Below, piece after piece: positions 30,263 to 45,896 of a stretch of DNA of 64,000 nucleotides. The DNA is taken from contig NZ_JAAIYO010000001.1 in assembly GCF_014930455.1 (NCBI RefSeq), positions 1,674,001 to 1,738,000 on the forward strand, written 5' to 3'. A program made the position numbers and the translations under genes. The stretch's first letter is position 1; every line of letters starts with the position of its first letter. Under the pieces are notes generated by a model. It saw nothing but the letters and a program-made list of their open reading frames with translations, ran no database searches and was not told the DNA's origin. This DNA comes from Corallococcus soli. Its GTDB lineage: Bacteria > Myxococcota > Myxococcia > Myxococcales > Myxococcaceae.

Positions 30263-30338
30263 TGGAGGCGGAGGGAATCGAACCCGCAACCTCCGCGTTC
30301 TGAGCGCGGCGCCTCTACCAAGATTGGGCTACCCCGGC
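30263..30338 (-). tRNA. tRNA-like sequence (CAG anticodon loop) with mismatched 3' end, probably inactive
   Basis: On the minus strand the 5' part is tRNA-like: GCCGGGG, a TAGCCC D-arm with TTGGTAGAGGC, and a perfect anticodon stem CCGCG/CGCGG around CTCAGAA (anticodon CAG). The variable loop is short (class I), which is wrong for tRNA-Leu. The T-stem GCGGG faces CCCTC, and the 3' acceptor strand CGCCTCC cannot pair with GCCGGGG. The pattern fits a tRNA whose sequence after the T-loop was replaced by recombination at the element's right end. Confidence 0.4.
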
Positions 30339-40640: not shown

Positions 40641-41684
40641 TCAGACATGCCGGGTGATGACCAGCGAGCCCGTGTCGATGGCTTCCTTCAACACGGACGG
40701 CAGGCTCTCCAGCGTCACCCGCGCGTCCGCGCCCGCCAGGCACACGCCCGCGTCGCGCACCCGCAGCGTCGCCATCTCCACCACCGTGATGAAGCGCTCG
40801 CCCATGAAGCCGTAGACCACCTCCATCAGGCCTCCACCCAACCGGCGGTGGTCGAGCATCCGCGCGCCGGCCTTGTTCAACGCACGCTCCGCCCACTCAC
40901 CGGATGCGGACTCCGCGCGCCGCTGCTGGCCGGGCGTGAGGGCCGTCCCGCTCCAGGTTTCGTGCGACCGACGCGCCTCCGCGTTCCAGCGGAGGTCCTG
41001 GAGGGTCCGCTCCCGCTCCGACAATGCGCGCTCCAACGACAGGGCCTCCATGTCCCGGTAGGCCTGCTGCCGCGCCTGCGCACGCAGGAAGTGGGCGCGC
41101 GCGTCCGCGAGCCGCCGCAGACACGCCTCCGCCTCCTCGCGCCCGCCCTGGGCGACTTCAAGCACGCGCGCGCGGGCCTCCGCTGGCGCGAAGGGGATGC
41201 CCGTCCCGCGCGACGCGACCTCCAGCAGGGCGAAGCCGAACGCCGCGCGCAGGGAGGCGCCCACGCCGCGCGTCTCCCCCAACGGACGGTCCTCCTCCAG
41301 CGCACGCCGCGCCTGCTCCTCGGCCTCGCTCTCGAACTCCACGCCCTCGAAGACGAGCGTGCCGTCATGCCAGCGGCGCGCCGTCACCGGGGACAGGCGC
41401 GGCGGCTGCTCCTCCGGCATCAACGCCAGGGGCTCCGCCACCGCGCCCTCGCGCACCAGCCGCGTGCCCCACAGGTGGCCCCGCACGCGCGGCCGGGCCT
41501 CCAGGCCCTCCGCGGAAGCCGGCTCGCGCGCGGTGGCCTGACGGCCCTTCAGCTCGAAGCTCCACCAGCCCGGTTCGACGGGCGTGGTGACGTGCAGGCG
41601 GCGTGAAGGCGCGTCCACGGTCCCGCCGCCGAAATACGGCAGCACCGCCGACTCCACCTTCCCGAGCAGCTTCCGGTAGTCCAC
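40641..41684 (-). CDS. Unknown protein in the Ro60-like/JAMM operon
   Basis: 347 aa from GTG 41684, with AGGAGG upstream, 13 nt after the Ro60-like stop. The N-terminal part (1-120) is beta-rich with conserved-looking Trp and Gly (LPYFGGGTVDAP, PGWWSFELKGR). The centre (about 120-270) is a long charged helical or coiled-coil region rich in Ala, Arg and Glu. The C-terminal 75 residues form a compact domain (FMGERFITVVEMATLRVRD and VTLESLPSVLKEAIDTGSL). There is no signal or membrane segment. I do not recognise a family. Tight spacing on both sides says it works with its operon partners. Confidence 0.75.
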   Translation of the reverse strand: MDYRKLLGKVESAVLPYFGGGTVDAPSRRLHVTTPVEPGWWSFELKGRQATAREPASAEGLEARPRVRGHLWGTRLVREGAVAEPLALMPEEQPPRLSPVTARRWHDGTLVFEGVEFESEAEEQARRALEEDRPLGETRGVGASLRAAFGFALLEVASRGTGIPFAPAEARARVLEVAQGGREEAEACLRRLADARAHFLRAQARQQAYRDMEALSLERALSERERTLQDLRWNAEARRSHETWSGTALTPGQQRRAESASGEWAERALNKAGARMLDHRRLGGGLMEVVYGFMGERFITVVEMATLRVRDAGVCLAGADARVTLESLPSVLKEAIDTGSLVITRHV

Positions 41685-41697
41685 GCCCCTGCCTCCT

Positions 41698-43458
41698 TCA
41701 CGCCACCTTCAAGAGGGGCGTGCTCATCACCCGGTCCACCCAGCCGGACTGGCGGGCTCCCGCCATGCGCGGCGCGTCCATCAACGTCTGGAGCACGCGC
41801 GGCACCTGGTAGGGGTCCGCGAACTGCCCCACGCTCACCTCGCTGAAGGGCACGCCCAGCTGCGACGCTCCCGTGCGCACGGTGTTGCCGCGCGCCCCCG
41901 CCACGCTCACCAGCAACGCCATCGCCGCCACGGTGTAGCCGCACCCGTGGAAGGCCTTGGCGAACTGGTCGCCCGCCTCGCCCGCCTCGTCACCCACCAC
42001 CATCACCACCAGCTTCGCCTCCGCCGGAATGCGCACGCCCGCGCGATGCAGCGCGTGCACCGCCGCCCCGTGCGTCGTGCCGCCCGACGCCTTCAGGTCG
42101 GCCAGCATGTGCTGCACCGCCGTGCGGTTGGCCGCCTTGGGCTTGAGCACCGTGCCCATGGTGTCGAACGCCGCGATGTGGAGCTTGTCCATCGGGAAGC
42201 CCGCGAGGATGCGCGACAGCGCCTCCTTCGACTGCTCGATGGCGCCCTCCATGGACCCCGACTTGTCGATGAGGAACATCACCCGCACGTCCTGCTCCGC
42301 GGTGGCCTGGGCCACCGCCTGTCGCGCGGCGTTGTCGCTCGCCTCCTCCAGCTTCTTGCGCAGGTCCTCGCCCCGGACGTTCTTCGCGATGTTCAGCGAC
42401 CGCTGATCCGTGGCGCGCGACACCGCCCGCTCCCAGCGCGCCTTCACGCTCGGCTCCTCCAGCAGGCCCAGCTCCTCCAGCGTGGGCGTCATCAGCCGCA
42501 GGTCCCGGTCCGACAGCGACGGCAGCAGCGTCGCCAGGATGGCGGGCGTGAGCCCCACGTCCTTCGGCAGACGGCCCACGACCTCCTTGTAGGAGAGGCG
42601 CTCCAGTTCAATCCACTCGCAGATCTCCGCCTCGCTGAGCCCGTCGAAGCGCTCGCGCTTCACCAGCGTGAGCCCCTGGAGGCCCACGTCGCGGTGCCCC
42701 GCGTCCGCCTGCTTCTGCTTCCAGCCGAGCACTTCGAAGAAGCCCTGCGACATGGGCTTGTAGCCGGCCTTGCGCGCCAGCTTCTTCAGCGTCTCCTTGT
42801 AGCCGGCCTTCACCAGGCCCTGGAGCATCGGCAGGTTCGCCTCGCGCGCGGCCAGCCACTTCTGCGCCACGCGCTTCCAGCGACCCAGGGGCGGCTTGTG
42901 CGACGCGGGGTCTCCGAAGCCCGCCTCGCGGTTGAGGCGCGCGATCTCAGGCACCTCCAGCAGCTCCGCCACGCGCAGCACCGCCTTGGGCGTGAGCATG
43001 CGCGTGGAGCGGCGCACGTAGTGCAGCACCATGGCCTCGCCAATGGCGCGGTAGTCGTCGTCGTGGAAGGCCACCTGGCCCTGGCCGTCGCGCACGGGCA
43101 GGCCCGCGTGCTGCTGCACCAGCATCAGCGCGCAGGTGGCGACCTTCAGGTCGCGCCAGTCCGTCTGCGTCAGCGCGTACGACGCGAAGTGGGCCATCAG
43201 GGTGGGGTTCAGGCGGTACAGCTCCAGCAACTGGCCGTACAGCTTCACCGCCGCGGGCACGAACAGGCCCGGCGCCACCTTGGGCCAGCGCGCGCGGGCC
43301 TGGGCGGACGCGTGCGCCGCGGCCTCCCAGGTGCCGGACACGTTCAGGCCGGGGCGGTGGTGCCACAGGTGCGCGGAGCCACCGAGCACCACGTCGAGCA
43401 GTCGCTCGGCCGGTCCCCGCTGCGTCTCCGGAAGGGTCGTCTGGGTGCGCGTCGTCAT
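41698..43458 (-). CDS. Ro60/Rsr-like protein: TROVE-type helical repeat plus vWA domain
   Basis: 586 aa from ATG 43458, with GGGGA upstream; the frame extends to 43827 but overlaps the RNA described below. Residues about 70-385 form a long array of helices like the HEAT-type TROVE ring (LTQTDWRDLKVATCALMLV, TPTLEELGLLEEPSVKARW). Residues 390-575 are a vWA domain with an intact MIDAS, FLIDKSGSMEG (D398, S400, S402), and later metal contacts. This is the layout of Ro60 and bacterial Rsr, which bind Y RNA and misfolded RNA and can tether PNPase or take part in RNA repair. Assignment to TROVE is by layout and context; the vWA is certain. First gene of a three-gene operon. Confidence 0.7.
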   Translation of the reverse strand: MTTRTQTTLPETQRGPAERLLDVVLGGSAHLWHHRPGLNVSGTWEAAAHASAQARARWPKVAPGLFVPAAVKLYGQLLELYRLNPTLMAHFASYALTQTDWRDLKVATCALMLVQQHAGLPVRDGQGQVAFHDDDYRAIGEAMVLHYVRRSTRMLTPKAVLRVAELLEVPEIARLNREAGFGDPASHKPPLGRWKRVAQKWLAAREANLPMLQGLVKAGYKETLKKLARKAGYKPMSQGFFEVLGWKQKQADAGHRDVGLQGLTLVKRERFDGLSEAEICEWIELERLSYKEVVGRLPKDVGLTPAILATLLPSLSDRDLRLMTPTLEELGLLEEPSVKARWERAVSRATDQRSLNIAKNVRGEDLRKKLEEASDNAARQAVAQATAEQDVRVMFLIDKSGSMEGAIEQSKEALSRILAGFPMDKLHIAAFDTMGTVLKPKAANRTAVQHMLADLKASGGTTHGAAVHALHRAGVRIPAEAKLVVMVVGDEAGEAGDQFAKAFHGCGYTVAAMALLVSVAGARGNTVRTGASQLGVPFSEVSVGQFADPYQVPRVLQTLMDAPRMAGARQSGWVDRVMSTPLLKVA

Positions 43459-43574
43459 GGCGGTCCCCTTTCGGGACGTCGGGACAAAGGACGGAGGCAT
43501 GCCCGGGAAGGGCAGCCAGGGGTGGAAGGGAAGGGTGAGCGCCCGAGTGAGGAAGCCGGAAGGCTGAATTAACG

Positions 43575-43735
43575 GTTCAGTGTCGGACCGCCGACGGGCT
43601 CCCCACCCTTTCGAGCGGGGAGATGGAGTCGAACCATGGCTTGTAGGGCCTCTTCGGCCGGGCGCTCGAAAGCGATGCGCCCCTGGACGCCTCCCCGGCC
43701 GGATTCCTGACGGGGGATTTCCCCAGGCCTTTCCG
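43575..43735 (-). ncRNA. tRNA-like RNA upstream of the Ro60-like gene, candidate bacterial Y RNA (YrlA-type)
   Basis: On the minus strand 43697-43616 folds like a tRNA: acceptor CGGGGAG pairs perfectly with CTCCCCG; GCG/CGC encloses a D-like loop; CGCT-TTCG-AGCG stands where the anticodon arm should be; GGCC-GAAGA-GGCC resembles a variable arm; and ATGG-TTCGACT-CCAT is a T-arm. There is no anticodon and no CCA, so it cannot be a working tRNA. Stable hairpins flank it (GGGG-AAAT-CCCC upstream; GTCGG-CGGT-CCGAC and CTGAA/TTCAG downstream). YrlA-type Y RNAs carry a tRNA-like module and are encoded beside Rsr genes. The ends are estimates. Confidence 0.55.
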
Positions 43736-43987
43736 TGGGTTTTCGCGCCTCCTTGCAGGGCGCCGGCCGCCGTGAACTTTTTCGTGGAGGGGGCGTCAGG
43801 AACCTGAGGGGGGCCGCGTCGAGGCATTCCAGGTGCTCCCGACTGTCCGGTGGTTCCGGTCCGCGGGCGCCCACGACTTCATGGGAGGCTGTCCGCGGAT
43901 GCCAACGTGGTACCTTGCCGCGCCACATCCCCGTAACCCAACCTCCCGGGATGACGCCCGTCCCGGGACAGCCTCCAGGGCCTTCCG

Positions 43988-44659
43988 GTGTACGAGCAGC
44001 TCACGGATGAGGAATTGTTCGCGGAGGTGTCCCGCCGCCGCACCACGGGCGAGCCCGTGGGCAACCCCTTGGGGGCCCTCTGCGCGCGATGGGCGCGCCC
44101 GGCCCGCTACGTCATCAGCAGGATTCAAGGCAGCTACGGGCGCGGTTCGCCGGCGGACGCCGACGAGCTGTTCCAGGACGCGGTGGGGAAGTTCCTCGAC
44201 CGGGGCCTGGATCAGTTCCGCGGCGTGTCCGAACAGATGCCGGGCAGGAGCGCGTCTCCCAAGACGTTCTTCCTGCGCATCGTCAAGCACGTCGCCATCG
44301 ACTTCTACCGGCGACACCGGGAGGAGCTGGCGCCCGCGTCGGCCTCGCCCGACGACGTCATGGAAGAGACCCCGTCCGAGGTGGCCCGGGCGGTGGAGGG
44401 CGCACGGCGTCGCGAGGAGCGCGCCGAGGCGCAGGAGCTGTATTGGGCCGCCTACGCCAGGCTCCAGCAGGAGCACCCCAAGGAGGCTTCAGCATGGGAG
44501 CTGTATCACCACGAGGACGTGGAGGATCACGAGGAATGCGCACGGCGTTTGGACATCAGCGTGGTGAATTCGTACAAGCGCGTCAGCCGCGCCCAGGCCT
44601 ACCTGCGCCTGTACCTGCTGGAGTTGCAGCGGGACGGTCAGCCGGAAGAGCCGTCGTGA
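43988..44659 (+). CDS. ECF-like RNA polymerase sigma factor
   Basis: 223 aa from GTG 43988. Sigma region 2 (ADELFQDAVGKFLDRGLDQF, then PKTFFLRIVKHVAIDFYRRH) and region 4 (the HEDVEDHEECARRLDISVVN helix-turn-helix) are visible, with an acidic linker between. It lies 46 bp before a gene with a zinc-binding anti-sigma-like segment, the usual arrangement for a sigma factor and its regulator. Confidence 0.8.
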   Translation: MYEQLTDEELFAEVSRRRTTGEPVGNPLGALCARWARPARYVISRIQGSYGRGSPADADELFQDAVGKFLDRGLDQFRGVSEQMPGRSASPKTFFLRIVKHVAIDFYRRHREELAPASASPDDVMEETPSEVARAVEGARRREERAEAQELYWAAYARLQQEHPKEASAWELYHHEDVEDHEECARRLDISVVNSYKRVSRAQAYLRLYLLELQRDGQPEEPS

Positions 44660-44705: not shown

Positions 44706-45896
44706 ATGAAGGGCGACGCGCTGTCCCGCTATCAGGCCCGTCACGCGCGCCTGGTCGCGGGTCCCGCTCCGGTGGGTGAGCTGTTGGAGGCGGTGGGGGA
44801 CGTGCTACGGCGCTCGGACAGGCTTGGCACCGACGGGGTGGAAGAGGCCCTGAAGGCCCTGGGCCGCGCGGAGCTGGAAGCCTGGCTGCACGCGCAGAAA
44901 CCGCAGGCGCTCCAACCGCTCCTGCTGCGCGCCGCCGAGGAGTCGATGGAGGCCGCGCTGGGCGAGGAGGGGGACGAAGCCGACGTGTGGCGCGCCTCCG
45001 CGCTGGAAGGACTCGCCGCCCGCGACCGGGCCGCCTCCGCCGCCCGCGCGCTGGCCACCTGGGAGATGCTGAAGGGCCCGCTGGAAGGGGACGCTGGCGC
45101 CGCCCGCGAGCGCTTCCTCGGGGCGCTGGGCCACCTGGACACCGCGCTGCGCCCCCGGGCGCGCTGGTTCATCCCCCTGAACACCGAGCGCCGCGCCGAG
45201 CGCGACCTGCTGGACCCGGTGGAGCGTCCCGGCGCCTGGTGGTTCTCCGCGCGGGCGGGCTGTGACGACCTGCTGGCGTCCTGGACGGGCAAGCCCCTGA
45301 AGGACCCCGAGCACCTGAAGGACTGCGCCGGCTGCCGCGCGGACCGGGCGGAGACCGCGGTGGTGGACACGCCCCCCCGACGGCACCTCACCGAGGACGA
45401 GCTGTGGCGCCTGGATGCGGGGCAGATGGGCCGCGAGGAGAAGGCGCGCGTGGAGGCCCACACCGCGTGGTGCGGCGAGTGCGCGCAGGCCGTGCTGGCG
45501 CTGGAGGAGGGCGACGCCGCCATCGACGAGGCTCTGGAGCTGGAGGAGGAGGGGCTGTCCGTGCCGCGCGCGGCCCGCGACTCCCGCGCGGACGCTTCCC
45601 GTCGCCCGGGGGCGGCCCGCCTGCCGGAGCTCCGTGAGGTGCTGGAGGAGCGCCGCGACTTCCGCGTGGTGCTGGTGCGCGAGCGTCAACGGGTGAGGCT
45701 GCTCGTGCAGCCCCTGGGCACGCGCGCCGTGACGGCCGCCGTCTTCCTGTCGCCGGGGCGTCCGTCGCTCAAGCCGACGCAGGGGCCGGAGGGGTTGTCC
45801 TTCGACCTGTCCACGGCGCTGGCCACGGGCGCGCACGCGGCCCACCTCACGGTGCAGGCCGGACAGGAGACGCTGGAGCGCGACTTCGCGTTCTAG
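44706..45896 (+). CDS. Cytosolic zf-HC2-type protein, likely partner of the upstream sigma factor
   Basis: 396 aa with no signal or membrane helix. The first 160 residues are helical and rich in Ala, Glu and Leu. At about 201-215 is CDDLLASW, then CAGC. At about 222-262 comes HLTEDELWRLDAGQMGREEK, then HTAWCGECAQA, a zf-HC2 (HxxxCxxC) anti-sigma signature. A beta-rich C-terminus follows. Classic anti-sigma factors of this class are membrane proteins, so a soluble form is atypical and might sense redox or zinc in the cytosol. A convergent terminator follows the gene. Confidence 0.7.
   Translation: MKGDALSRYQARHARLVAGPAPVGELLEAVGDVLRRSDRLGTDGVEEALKALGRAELEAWLHAQKPQALQPLLLRAAEESMEAALGEEGDEADVWRASALEGLAARDRAASAARALATWEMLKGPLEGDAGAARERFLGALGHLDTALRPRARWFIPLNTERRAERDLLDPVERPGAWWFSARAGCDDLLASWTGKPLKDPEHLKDCAGCRADRAETAVVDTPPRRHLTEDELWRLDAGQMGREEKARVEAHTAWCGECAQAVLALEEGDAAIDEALELEEEGLSVPRAARDSRADASRRPGAARLPELREVLEERRDFRVVLVRERQRVRLLVQPLGTRAVTAAVFLSPGRPSLKPTQGPEGLSFDLSTALATGAHAAHLTVQAGQETLERDFAF

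Follow-up and report, generated by a model that had tools for sequence, protein, structure and literature searches.

A candidate myxobacterial Y RNA with a permuted tRNA-like module beside a divergent Ro60-like gene

The locus and the fold of its RNA

The window, i.e., the whole stretch of 64,000 nucleotides that was analysed, carries on its minus strand a Y-RNA-like RNA (43537–43667) that measures 131 nt from the first to the last base of its closing stem. The 3′ end of the RNA lies 78 nt before the start codon (43458) of a gene on the same strand (41698–43458), which encodes a protein of 586 aa with a C-terminal vWA domain that is Ro60-like by profile and fold comparison. This gene is followed by a conserved gene (40641–41684, minus strand) for a protein of 347 aa beginning with MDYRKLLGKVE, which has no Pfam, NCBIfam or PADLOC match and stands in the same place in several relatives. 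On the plus strand, domain scans revealed a divergently oriented gene for an ECF-type sigma factor (43988–44659), which is a candidate regulator. None of the three locus proteins was matched by PADLOC. Directly after the sigma factor gene, the gene at 44706–45896 (plus strand) encodes a putative zinc finger (zf-HC2). Domains of this type are common in anti-sigma factors.

A sequence-only reading had proposed a structured RNA that has a T-arm of the tRNA type and precedes a vWA/Ro60-like gene on the same strand; both the RNA and its position on the minus strand are borne out. The borders given at that time (43575–43735) have to be moved. They leave out the 3′ strand of the closing stem and begin about 70 nt too far upstream; the interval folded as given yields z-scores of −1.48 (minus strand) and 0.00 (plus strand). 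The upstream regions of 16 genomes of the window's genus align well, and their conserved block begins inside 43575–43735 and extends beyond its low end. For 43667–43537, the minimum free energy (MFE) is −61.5 kcal/mol (z −3.36), one of 300 dinucleotide shuffles is as low, and the free MFE structure is identical to the comparative fold. A covariance model (R1) built from 22 class-A sequences, the window copy among them, found the RNA in the window by cmsearch with 139.5 bits (E 7.2e-24), and the second-best match scored 14.7 bits. Among congeners, the RNA is 125, 127 or 128 nt long.

The two ends of the RNA form a long stem. The ten base pairs of the closing stem P1 (43658–43667 with 43537–43546), known from covariation, are separated by a 2 × 2 internal loop (CC/CA) from the stem P2 (43647–43655 with 43549–43557), which is seen in both covariation and the MFE fold and whose nine positions include one A-C mismatch in the window copy. 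Inside this stem, the alignments show a conserved linker (NNACAMGCC, 43638–43646) followed by four hairpins. These are the T-arm ATGG-TTCGACT-CCAT (43623–43637), with GC, AU and CG at its outer pair; a closed acceptor-like hairpin of 10 bp with the loop CGAA (43599–43622); a D-like hairpin, GTCGG-CGGT-CCGAC (43582–43595), with a CG/UA exchange; and an anticodon-like hairpin (43564–43580), with double changes at four of its five pairs. This order of the arms is that of a circularly permuted cloverleaf, which corresponds to a tRNA whose acceptor ends are linked through a loop and whose chain is opened within the variable region. The last hairpin had been described as a stem closed by TTCG that replaces the anticodon arm and leaves no anticodon; it is a 5-bp stem with a 7-nt loop (CTGAA-CCGTTAA-TTCAG) in the position of the anticodon arm. 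The “perfect 7-bp acceptor stem” (GGGGAGG/TCTCCCC) of the same reading was rejected. All seven pairs form in only 2 of the 16 congeners, and three or four form in another four; the 87 of 112 cells that pair can be reached by G-rich and C-rich strands without any stem.

The fold is carried by compensatory changes. Class A, to which the window copy belongs, comprises 22 distinct sequences, and 96.1% of the cells in the closing stem and the T-arm, D-like and anticodon-like hairpins pair. Double changes were counted at 13 pairs (4.0 in shuffles) and in 32 cells (5.5 in shuffles), with the acceptor-like hairpin excluded on that alignment, and 0 of 500 shuffles reached either value. The sequence-only reading had named the absence of compensatory changes and of a conserved fold as its refutation; the covariation is strong. 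One P2 pair (columns 15/122) is unpaired in 12 of the 22 sequences, the window copy included. The acceptor-like hairpin folds alone in 22/22 despite very different sequences, and at most 5% of the shuffles of each sequence fold as well. When it was folded jointly with the D-like hairpin, six of the 22 sequences (L009, L011, L012, L013, L015 and L016) preferred another pairing.

Orthologous genes farther off are accompanied by RNAs with the same ends and different inserts. Such units were extracted with the 5′ elements CCGGCC (or CCGGTC), GGCC and ACAMGCC and the 3′ element CTCGGGCG, within one mismatch; the constancy of these bases is partly by construction because the same bases were used for the extraction. 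This applies to the linker ACAMGCC in the pattern-found set; it is also constant across the 16 Corallococcus upstream regions, which were collected via the protein. The pattern search of 145 genomes returned 76 sites in 51 genomes, and the reversed-pattern control returned 4. Five pattern sites, with neither a 3′ partner nor a tRNA-like insert, were rejected. A genome contig search gave 43 stretches, 21 with a 3′ partner and three more (L066, L081, L092) under a looser rule; the remaining ones were taken as chance matches. Altogether, 67 distinct units were extracted and 64 were kept, after removal of three chance matches from Actinophytocola (L059), Anaerolineae (L070) and Nitratireductor (L072); the “NO3” rows were dropped too. 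Viral contigs scanned with the 5′ stem pattern gave 0 matches.

The closing stem was counted over 51 distinct end pairs from 66 units, for which two of the “NO3” rows (L096 and L153) were re-added by hand. The outer seven pairs of P1 show 67 double changes (shuffle mean 20.5, maximum 31 of 2000 shuffles), and the five free pairs of P2 show 46 (mean 12.7, maximum 22). Slid registers, used as a control, gave at most 25 for P1 and at most 16 for P2. This count led us to abandon an early model that had a local GGCC-N5-GGCC hairpin and an AAGCC/GGCTT helix. Its GGCC strands pair in 51/51, but only because the search pattern contained both. The loop positions that were free to vary covary with the 3′ strand, and the inner helix is paired at position 26 in no more than 22/51. 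The 12 nt beginning 4 nt past the stem contain 83% pyrimidines on average. The stem and this tract are not named a terminator because the intrinsic-terminator scan found none; a scan for sigma-70 promoters found none either.

The Ro60-like protein and its linkage to the RNA

In the protein encoded from 43458 on the minus strand, Pfam VWA_2 matches residues 393–490 (E 1.6e-9). The vWA domain contains DKSGSM, a motif of the DxSxS type, in 15/15 aligned orthologues. DxSxS in a vWA domain is a metal-binding motif. At E ≤ 1, the protein is unmatched by Pfam TROVE (PF05731) and vWA_Ro60 (PF25045), and a search of its own genome with PF05731 gave no match. The profile of 15 orthologues was compared by hhalign with five Myxococcota proteins found by PF05731, which yielded a probability of 96.2 (E 2.5e-9) over columns 195–496, i.e., part of the pre-vWA region and the vWA domain. 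Scanned at full length, each of the five comparison proteins scores above the TROVE cut-off, and TROVE also matches a sixth protein, from G106. The AlphaFold model of the protein is middling (pLDDT 72, pTM 0.47). In Foldseek, its six best matches are Ro60/TROVE structures (E 8.1e-8 to 1.6e-7), aligned over most of the length. The structure 1yvp_A was aligned over 560 columns (E 8.1e-8) and 2nvo over 551 columns (E 3.7e-6), both with a TM of about 0.4, and the Rsr of Deinococcus stood at rank 10. In VIA-align, vWA domains fill the list, and the Ro rows (Z 12.4, rmsd 7.6–8.9) are tied with plain vWA rows; among the best 50 rows, only four Ro entries begin at residues 66–69 and reach 562–564.

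The Foldseek matches, the VIA-align span and the hhalign result all point to the Ro60 fold of a HEAT-type ring and a vWA domain. Judged by profile and structural model, the protein is a divergent Ro60 relative outside PF05731 and PF25045. It is called “Ro60-like” rather than a member of either Pfam family because both models fail. The likeness to Rsr/TROVE proteins lies in the fold and in the profile over part of the pre-vWA region and the vWA domain; the difference is the absence of a PF05731 or PF25045 match. The neighbour had been described earlier as TROVE-like; the relationship to Ro60 stands by profile and fold, and the family assignment through the two Pfam models does not. Our confidence in the best explanation is slightly lowered because the Ro60-specific Pfam vWA model also fails. 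Among the 76 genomes with the Ro-like protein, PF05731 matches only in G096, in a different gene. Over 195 genomes, TROVE was found in at least 5, a lower bound, since G106 was missed although its ORF matches TROVE when scanned whole.

The RNA and the protein occur together. The class-A covariance model (E ≤ 0.001, strict filters, by which weak matches can be lost) matched 72 of 195 Myxococcota genomes. All but one of these belong to the window's family (71); G035 comes from a different family of the order. Both partners are present in 71 genomes, the protein only in 5 (G028, G031, G092, G142, G162), the RNA only in 1 (G089) and neither in 118, counts that share ancestry and are not independent events. 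Within the window's family, the corresponding numbers are 70, 4, 1 and 21. Three of the 76 protein calls (G020, G102, G162) are fragmentary or distant. For 47 of the 76 Ro-like genes, the strict RNA motif is found no more than 550 nt upstream. With six exceptions among 195 genomes, with a Ro60-like neighbour and with covariation, the Y-RNA/Ro ribonucleoprotein suggested by the sequence-only reading appears well founded.

The arrangement of the genes varies between relatives. In Citreicoccus (L079), the order is RNA, phosphatase gene, RNA, Ro-like gene and a gene for an MDYRKFLGK protein; Myxococcus-type loci (L056, L062, L073) consist of a divergent sigma factor gene, a phosphatase gene, the RNA and the Ro-like gene. 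The phosphatase of the cluster is similar to ApaH and bacterial Pnkp. Myxococcus xanthus (strain AM003, L069) is one of the carriers. A Myxococcus-type locus also stands in L062 (BNCN01000002.1), a record titled Comamonas sp. KCTC 72670; the title looks wrong. RtcB gave five matches in the window's own genome (on C1, C2, with two, and C11), all away from the locus; they were counted as four ORFs because two share open-frame length and neighbourhood.

A common promoter-like motif links the genes. GTCAGGAAT-N-CGTC precedes the RNA on the minus strand (43686–43711) and is mirrored on the plus strand before the divergent sigma factor gene (43795–43820). ECF-type promoters carry GGAAC/CGTC, and the motif resembles this type in sequence. 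Of 38 Ro-like genes examined over up to 700 nt of upstream sequence, 24 have it (shuffles: mean 0.5, maximum 3); the reverse strand carries it in 11 of the 38 regions, which is expected for a divergent promoter. Within 90 nt upstream of the RNA, it is found for 41 of the 64 units, 36 of them at 34–49 nt (1 of 1280 shuffles; reverse strand 0), the units being related by descent and not independent cases. The motif is missing for 23 units; 18 of these stand behind another copy or behind the end of a phosphatase gene (assessed by eye over 60 nt), as expected for co-transcription. The neighbouring sigma factor would use this motif and drive both the RNA and the Ro-like gene. In the window as a whole, the promoter-like pattern occurs 11 times (e.g., −34357, −30697, −18111), and 3.1 occurrences are expected in shuffles; three further minus-strand matches also start with GTCAGGAA.

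The arrangement could also be that of a cis-acting leader, a 5′ UTR element of the Ro-like mRNA through which the protein controls its own expression, with no free RNA made. The 78 nt between RNA and start codon, the fact that the sole promoter-like motif found is upstream of the RNA, and the stem of L018, which ends about 25 nt before the start, would all suit such an element. It is nevertheless an unlikely explanation in view of the copies found elsewhere. The window's own genome has a second copy (L212, G000:C6:190092–190211, 58 bits, E 9.6e-7) at a distance from the Ro gene, with a T-arm and further hairpins in its insert. This copy is immediately preceded by the same promoter motif and is directed towards an ORF on the opposite strand, so the RNA does not have to act as a leader. 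Tandem arrays of two or three copies also speak against a leader. So do the Ro-like genes without the motif within 550 nt (29 of 76): 24 of them sit in genomes with a model match somewhere; in some genomes, this match stands ahead of the phosphatase gene, about 1 kb upstream.

Less probable still is a real structured RNA that belongs to the same regulon and is not bound by the Ro-like protein. The common promoter motif alone could explain the linkage and the co-occurrence, whereas the YrlA matches in relatives, the internal loop of the closing stem and the Ro60-related neighbour all suggest a RoRNP.

tRNA mimicry and the relation to YrlA

The insert is a permuted tRNA-like module of the YrlA type, as the arms supported by covariation stand in the order T, acceptor, D and anticodon. 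In the window, ARAGORN finds one tRNA, far away, and Rfam finds two, both near 30.3 kb. One of these (30263–30338, minus strand), beside tRNA-Pro(CGG), matches the Rfam tRNA model with 37.3 bits, has several acceptor-stem mismatches and is not called by ARAGORN; it is possibly a decayed or odd tRNA. Across the 64 units, ARAGORN calls none of the inserts as they stand and 38 after rotation. As controls for the rotation, 640 shuffles and about 640 window pieces gave no call; a few pieces close to tRNAs were skipped. In class A, 14 of the 22 rotated inserts are called. The T-loop motif is present in 57 of the 64 units; the other seven (L018, L063, L078, L116, L117, L118, L124) have only the closing stem and simple hairpins.

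These results bear on the possibility of a true permuted tRNA gene, the product of which would be cut, joined and used in translation. The 38 rotated inserts that read as tRNA, several with full anticodon loops, would agree with it, and the ordinary Rfam tRNA model (cut-off 29) matches parts of L094 (42.8 bits) and L047 (31.0 bits). The features of a functional tRNA, a constant anticodon and a canonical D-arm, were not found. The apparent anticodons vary among congeners (cgt, ctg, cca, tgg, gtt, ctt), which argues against decoding, and a canonical D-arm start is present in 25 of the 64 units and in 0 of the 22 of class A. The window copy is not called after rotation, seven units are without the T-arm motif, and the insert is seated in a conserved closing stem. 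A role in translation is very improbable on these grounds. An N-terminal extension of the Ro-like ORF, which is open to 43827 here so that a 709-aa ORF spans the RNA, can practically be dismissed, since such a long frame (671–726 aa) exists in 7 of the 16 genomes in the genus (among them this one), but the frame measures 622–626 aa in the other 9 and closes within about 40 codons of the conserved start, and the RNA differs by 1–3 nt between congeners, with changes that compensate in stems.

The Rfam model (RF02553) for YrlA, the Y RNA-like RNA of the Salmonella rsr-yrlBA-rtcBA operon, matches the window copy neither at the gathering cut-off (69 bits) nor at E ≤ 10. No Rfam family gave a convincing match to the reported interval; the overlapping match on the RNA strand is a tRNA-Sec alignment at chance level (15.4 bits, E 3.9). 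The comparison with the Rfam Y RNA models, recommended earlier as a check, was positive for some relatives, below the cut-off. A scan of four chosen loci gave three matches in two of them (L017 once, L022 twice; E 1.7e-7 to 2.9e-4) and missed L001, L018, one of the two units in L017 and one of the three in L022. In a scan of ten loci, eight matched with 32.9–49.1 bits (E 2.7e-8 to 1.3e-3), all below 69, some over model positions 23–85 only; L146, L155 and the class-A unit of L034 were missed. An order-wide scan (E ≤ 0.01) matched 76 of 145 genomes, none above the cut-off and 0 of 16 in the window's genus. It is not used alone as evidence because 9 of 14 control genomes match too; the control matches probably stem from adjacent tRNA genes that resemble a permuted tRNA.

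Classic YrlA loci exist in the same order. In G106 (C131, L196), YrlA copies of 65.9 and 33.9 bits stand beside a TROVE/vWA_Ro60 protein, RtcB and RtcR, and in G041 (C42; L163, L032), a YrlA copy of 65.1 bits stands beside a TROVE protein. Homology of the stem to YrlA is not established because the closing stems of these copies differ in sequence from that of the window RNA.

A probable Y RNA and its possible role

The Y RNA class is marked by two features. The ends of the RNA pair in a long stem that contains an internal loop or bulge, and its gene lies near, and co-occurs with, that of a Ro60 relative. The first feature appears in 51 distinct sequences, and the second is seen in the 47 of 76 genes and the 71/5/1/118 distribution given above. 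We consider it probable that the RNA is the Y RNA partner of the divergent Ro60, with a tRNA mimic and a predicted Ro-binding stem.

The known systems support this comparison. In YrlA, Rsr binds the basal stem of a circularly permuted tRNA mimic (PMC11472068, PMC8394870), and a passage in PMC8394870 names only its D, T and acceptor arms. The comparison draws on passages in PMC8394870, PMC11472068, PMC7790460 and PMC4726728. Both RNAs carry a permuted tRNA-like module, with T-arm, closed acceptor hairpin and D-arm, on a long stem made by their ends, and both are encoded beside a Ro60 relative; sister copies with the closing stem of the window RNA reach about 33–49 bits against RF02553. The window RNA differs in its stem, which is GCGCCCGGCC...CACTCGGGCGC rather than the GGCGA-AUGC type of the YrlA copies in G106 and G041, and in giving no RF02553 match. 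Additionally, its cloverleaf opens in the variable region, retains an anticodon-like arm and has a short D-arm.

In Deinococcus radiodurans, the DrY RNA is stress-linked and its lower stem is bound by the Ro relative (PMC4726728). The analogy with the DrY RNA/Rsr/PNPase complex (RYPER), in which the Y RNA recruits PNPase, is a Y RNA with a Ro60 relative in a bacterium; the presumed control by an ECF-type sigma factor would be a difference. In other species, Y RNA levels fall when the Ro gene is deleted (PMC4726728). Vertebrate Y RNAs have a conserved lower stem with unpaired bases, including cytidines, and a variable outer part (PMC4726728). The window RNA shares an interrupted conserved lower stem and a variable outer part, a likeness that is not claimed as sequence homology. 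The vertebrate site has a helix of 7 bp, a single bulged C and a bulge of 3 nt, whereas the window RNA has a 10-bp helix and a 2 × 2 internal loop.

A mechanism can be proposed for the putative Y RNA. The divergently encoded ECF-type sigma factor would turn on the RNA and the Ro-like gene together, possibly as part of a stress regulon, and the RNA would be released from the Ro mRNA or would end before it. The long closing stem is the candidate binding site for the ring protein encoded just downstream. The outer part, the permuted tRNA mimic, would be the effector module; it may gate access to the ring or tether an RNA-processing partner. As an outcome, damaged or misfolded RNA would be handled, with tRNA perhaps first.

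A bolder and rather doubtful extension is that of a modular scaffold, in which one Ro-binding stem took up different tRNAs several times, as whole cloverleaves including the anticodon arm. Together with the Pnkp/ApaH-like phosphatase of the Myxococcus and Citreicoccus clusters, this would form an ECF-controlled system for RNA damage, and the permuted tRNAs could act as baits or sensors for anticodon nucleases or damaged tRNAs.

No literature linking Y RNAs with myxobacteria was found in a search that left most subscription literature outside, which is not proof of absence. The Ro60/Y RNA system described here is missed by Pfam TROVE and Rfam YrlA at their own cut-offs, and its two partners are paired in 71 of 195 Myxococcota genomes. 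On a constant stem, the inserts extend from those without any tRNA to full permuted cloverleaves. These natural variants could therefore reveal the role of the tRNA-like end, and a genetically tractable species, Myxococcus xanthus, is among the carriers. Myxobacteria may have a distinct family of bacterial Y RNAs, which may help the cell to handle damaged RNA under stress.
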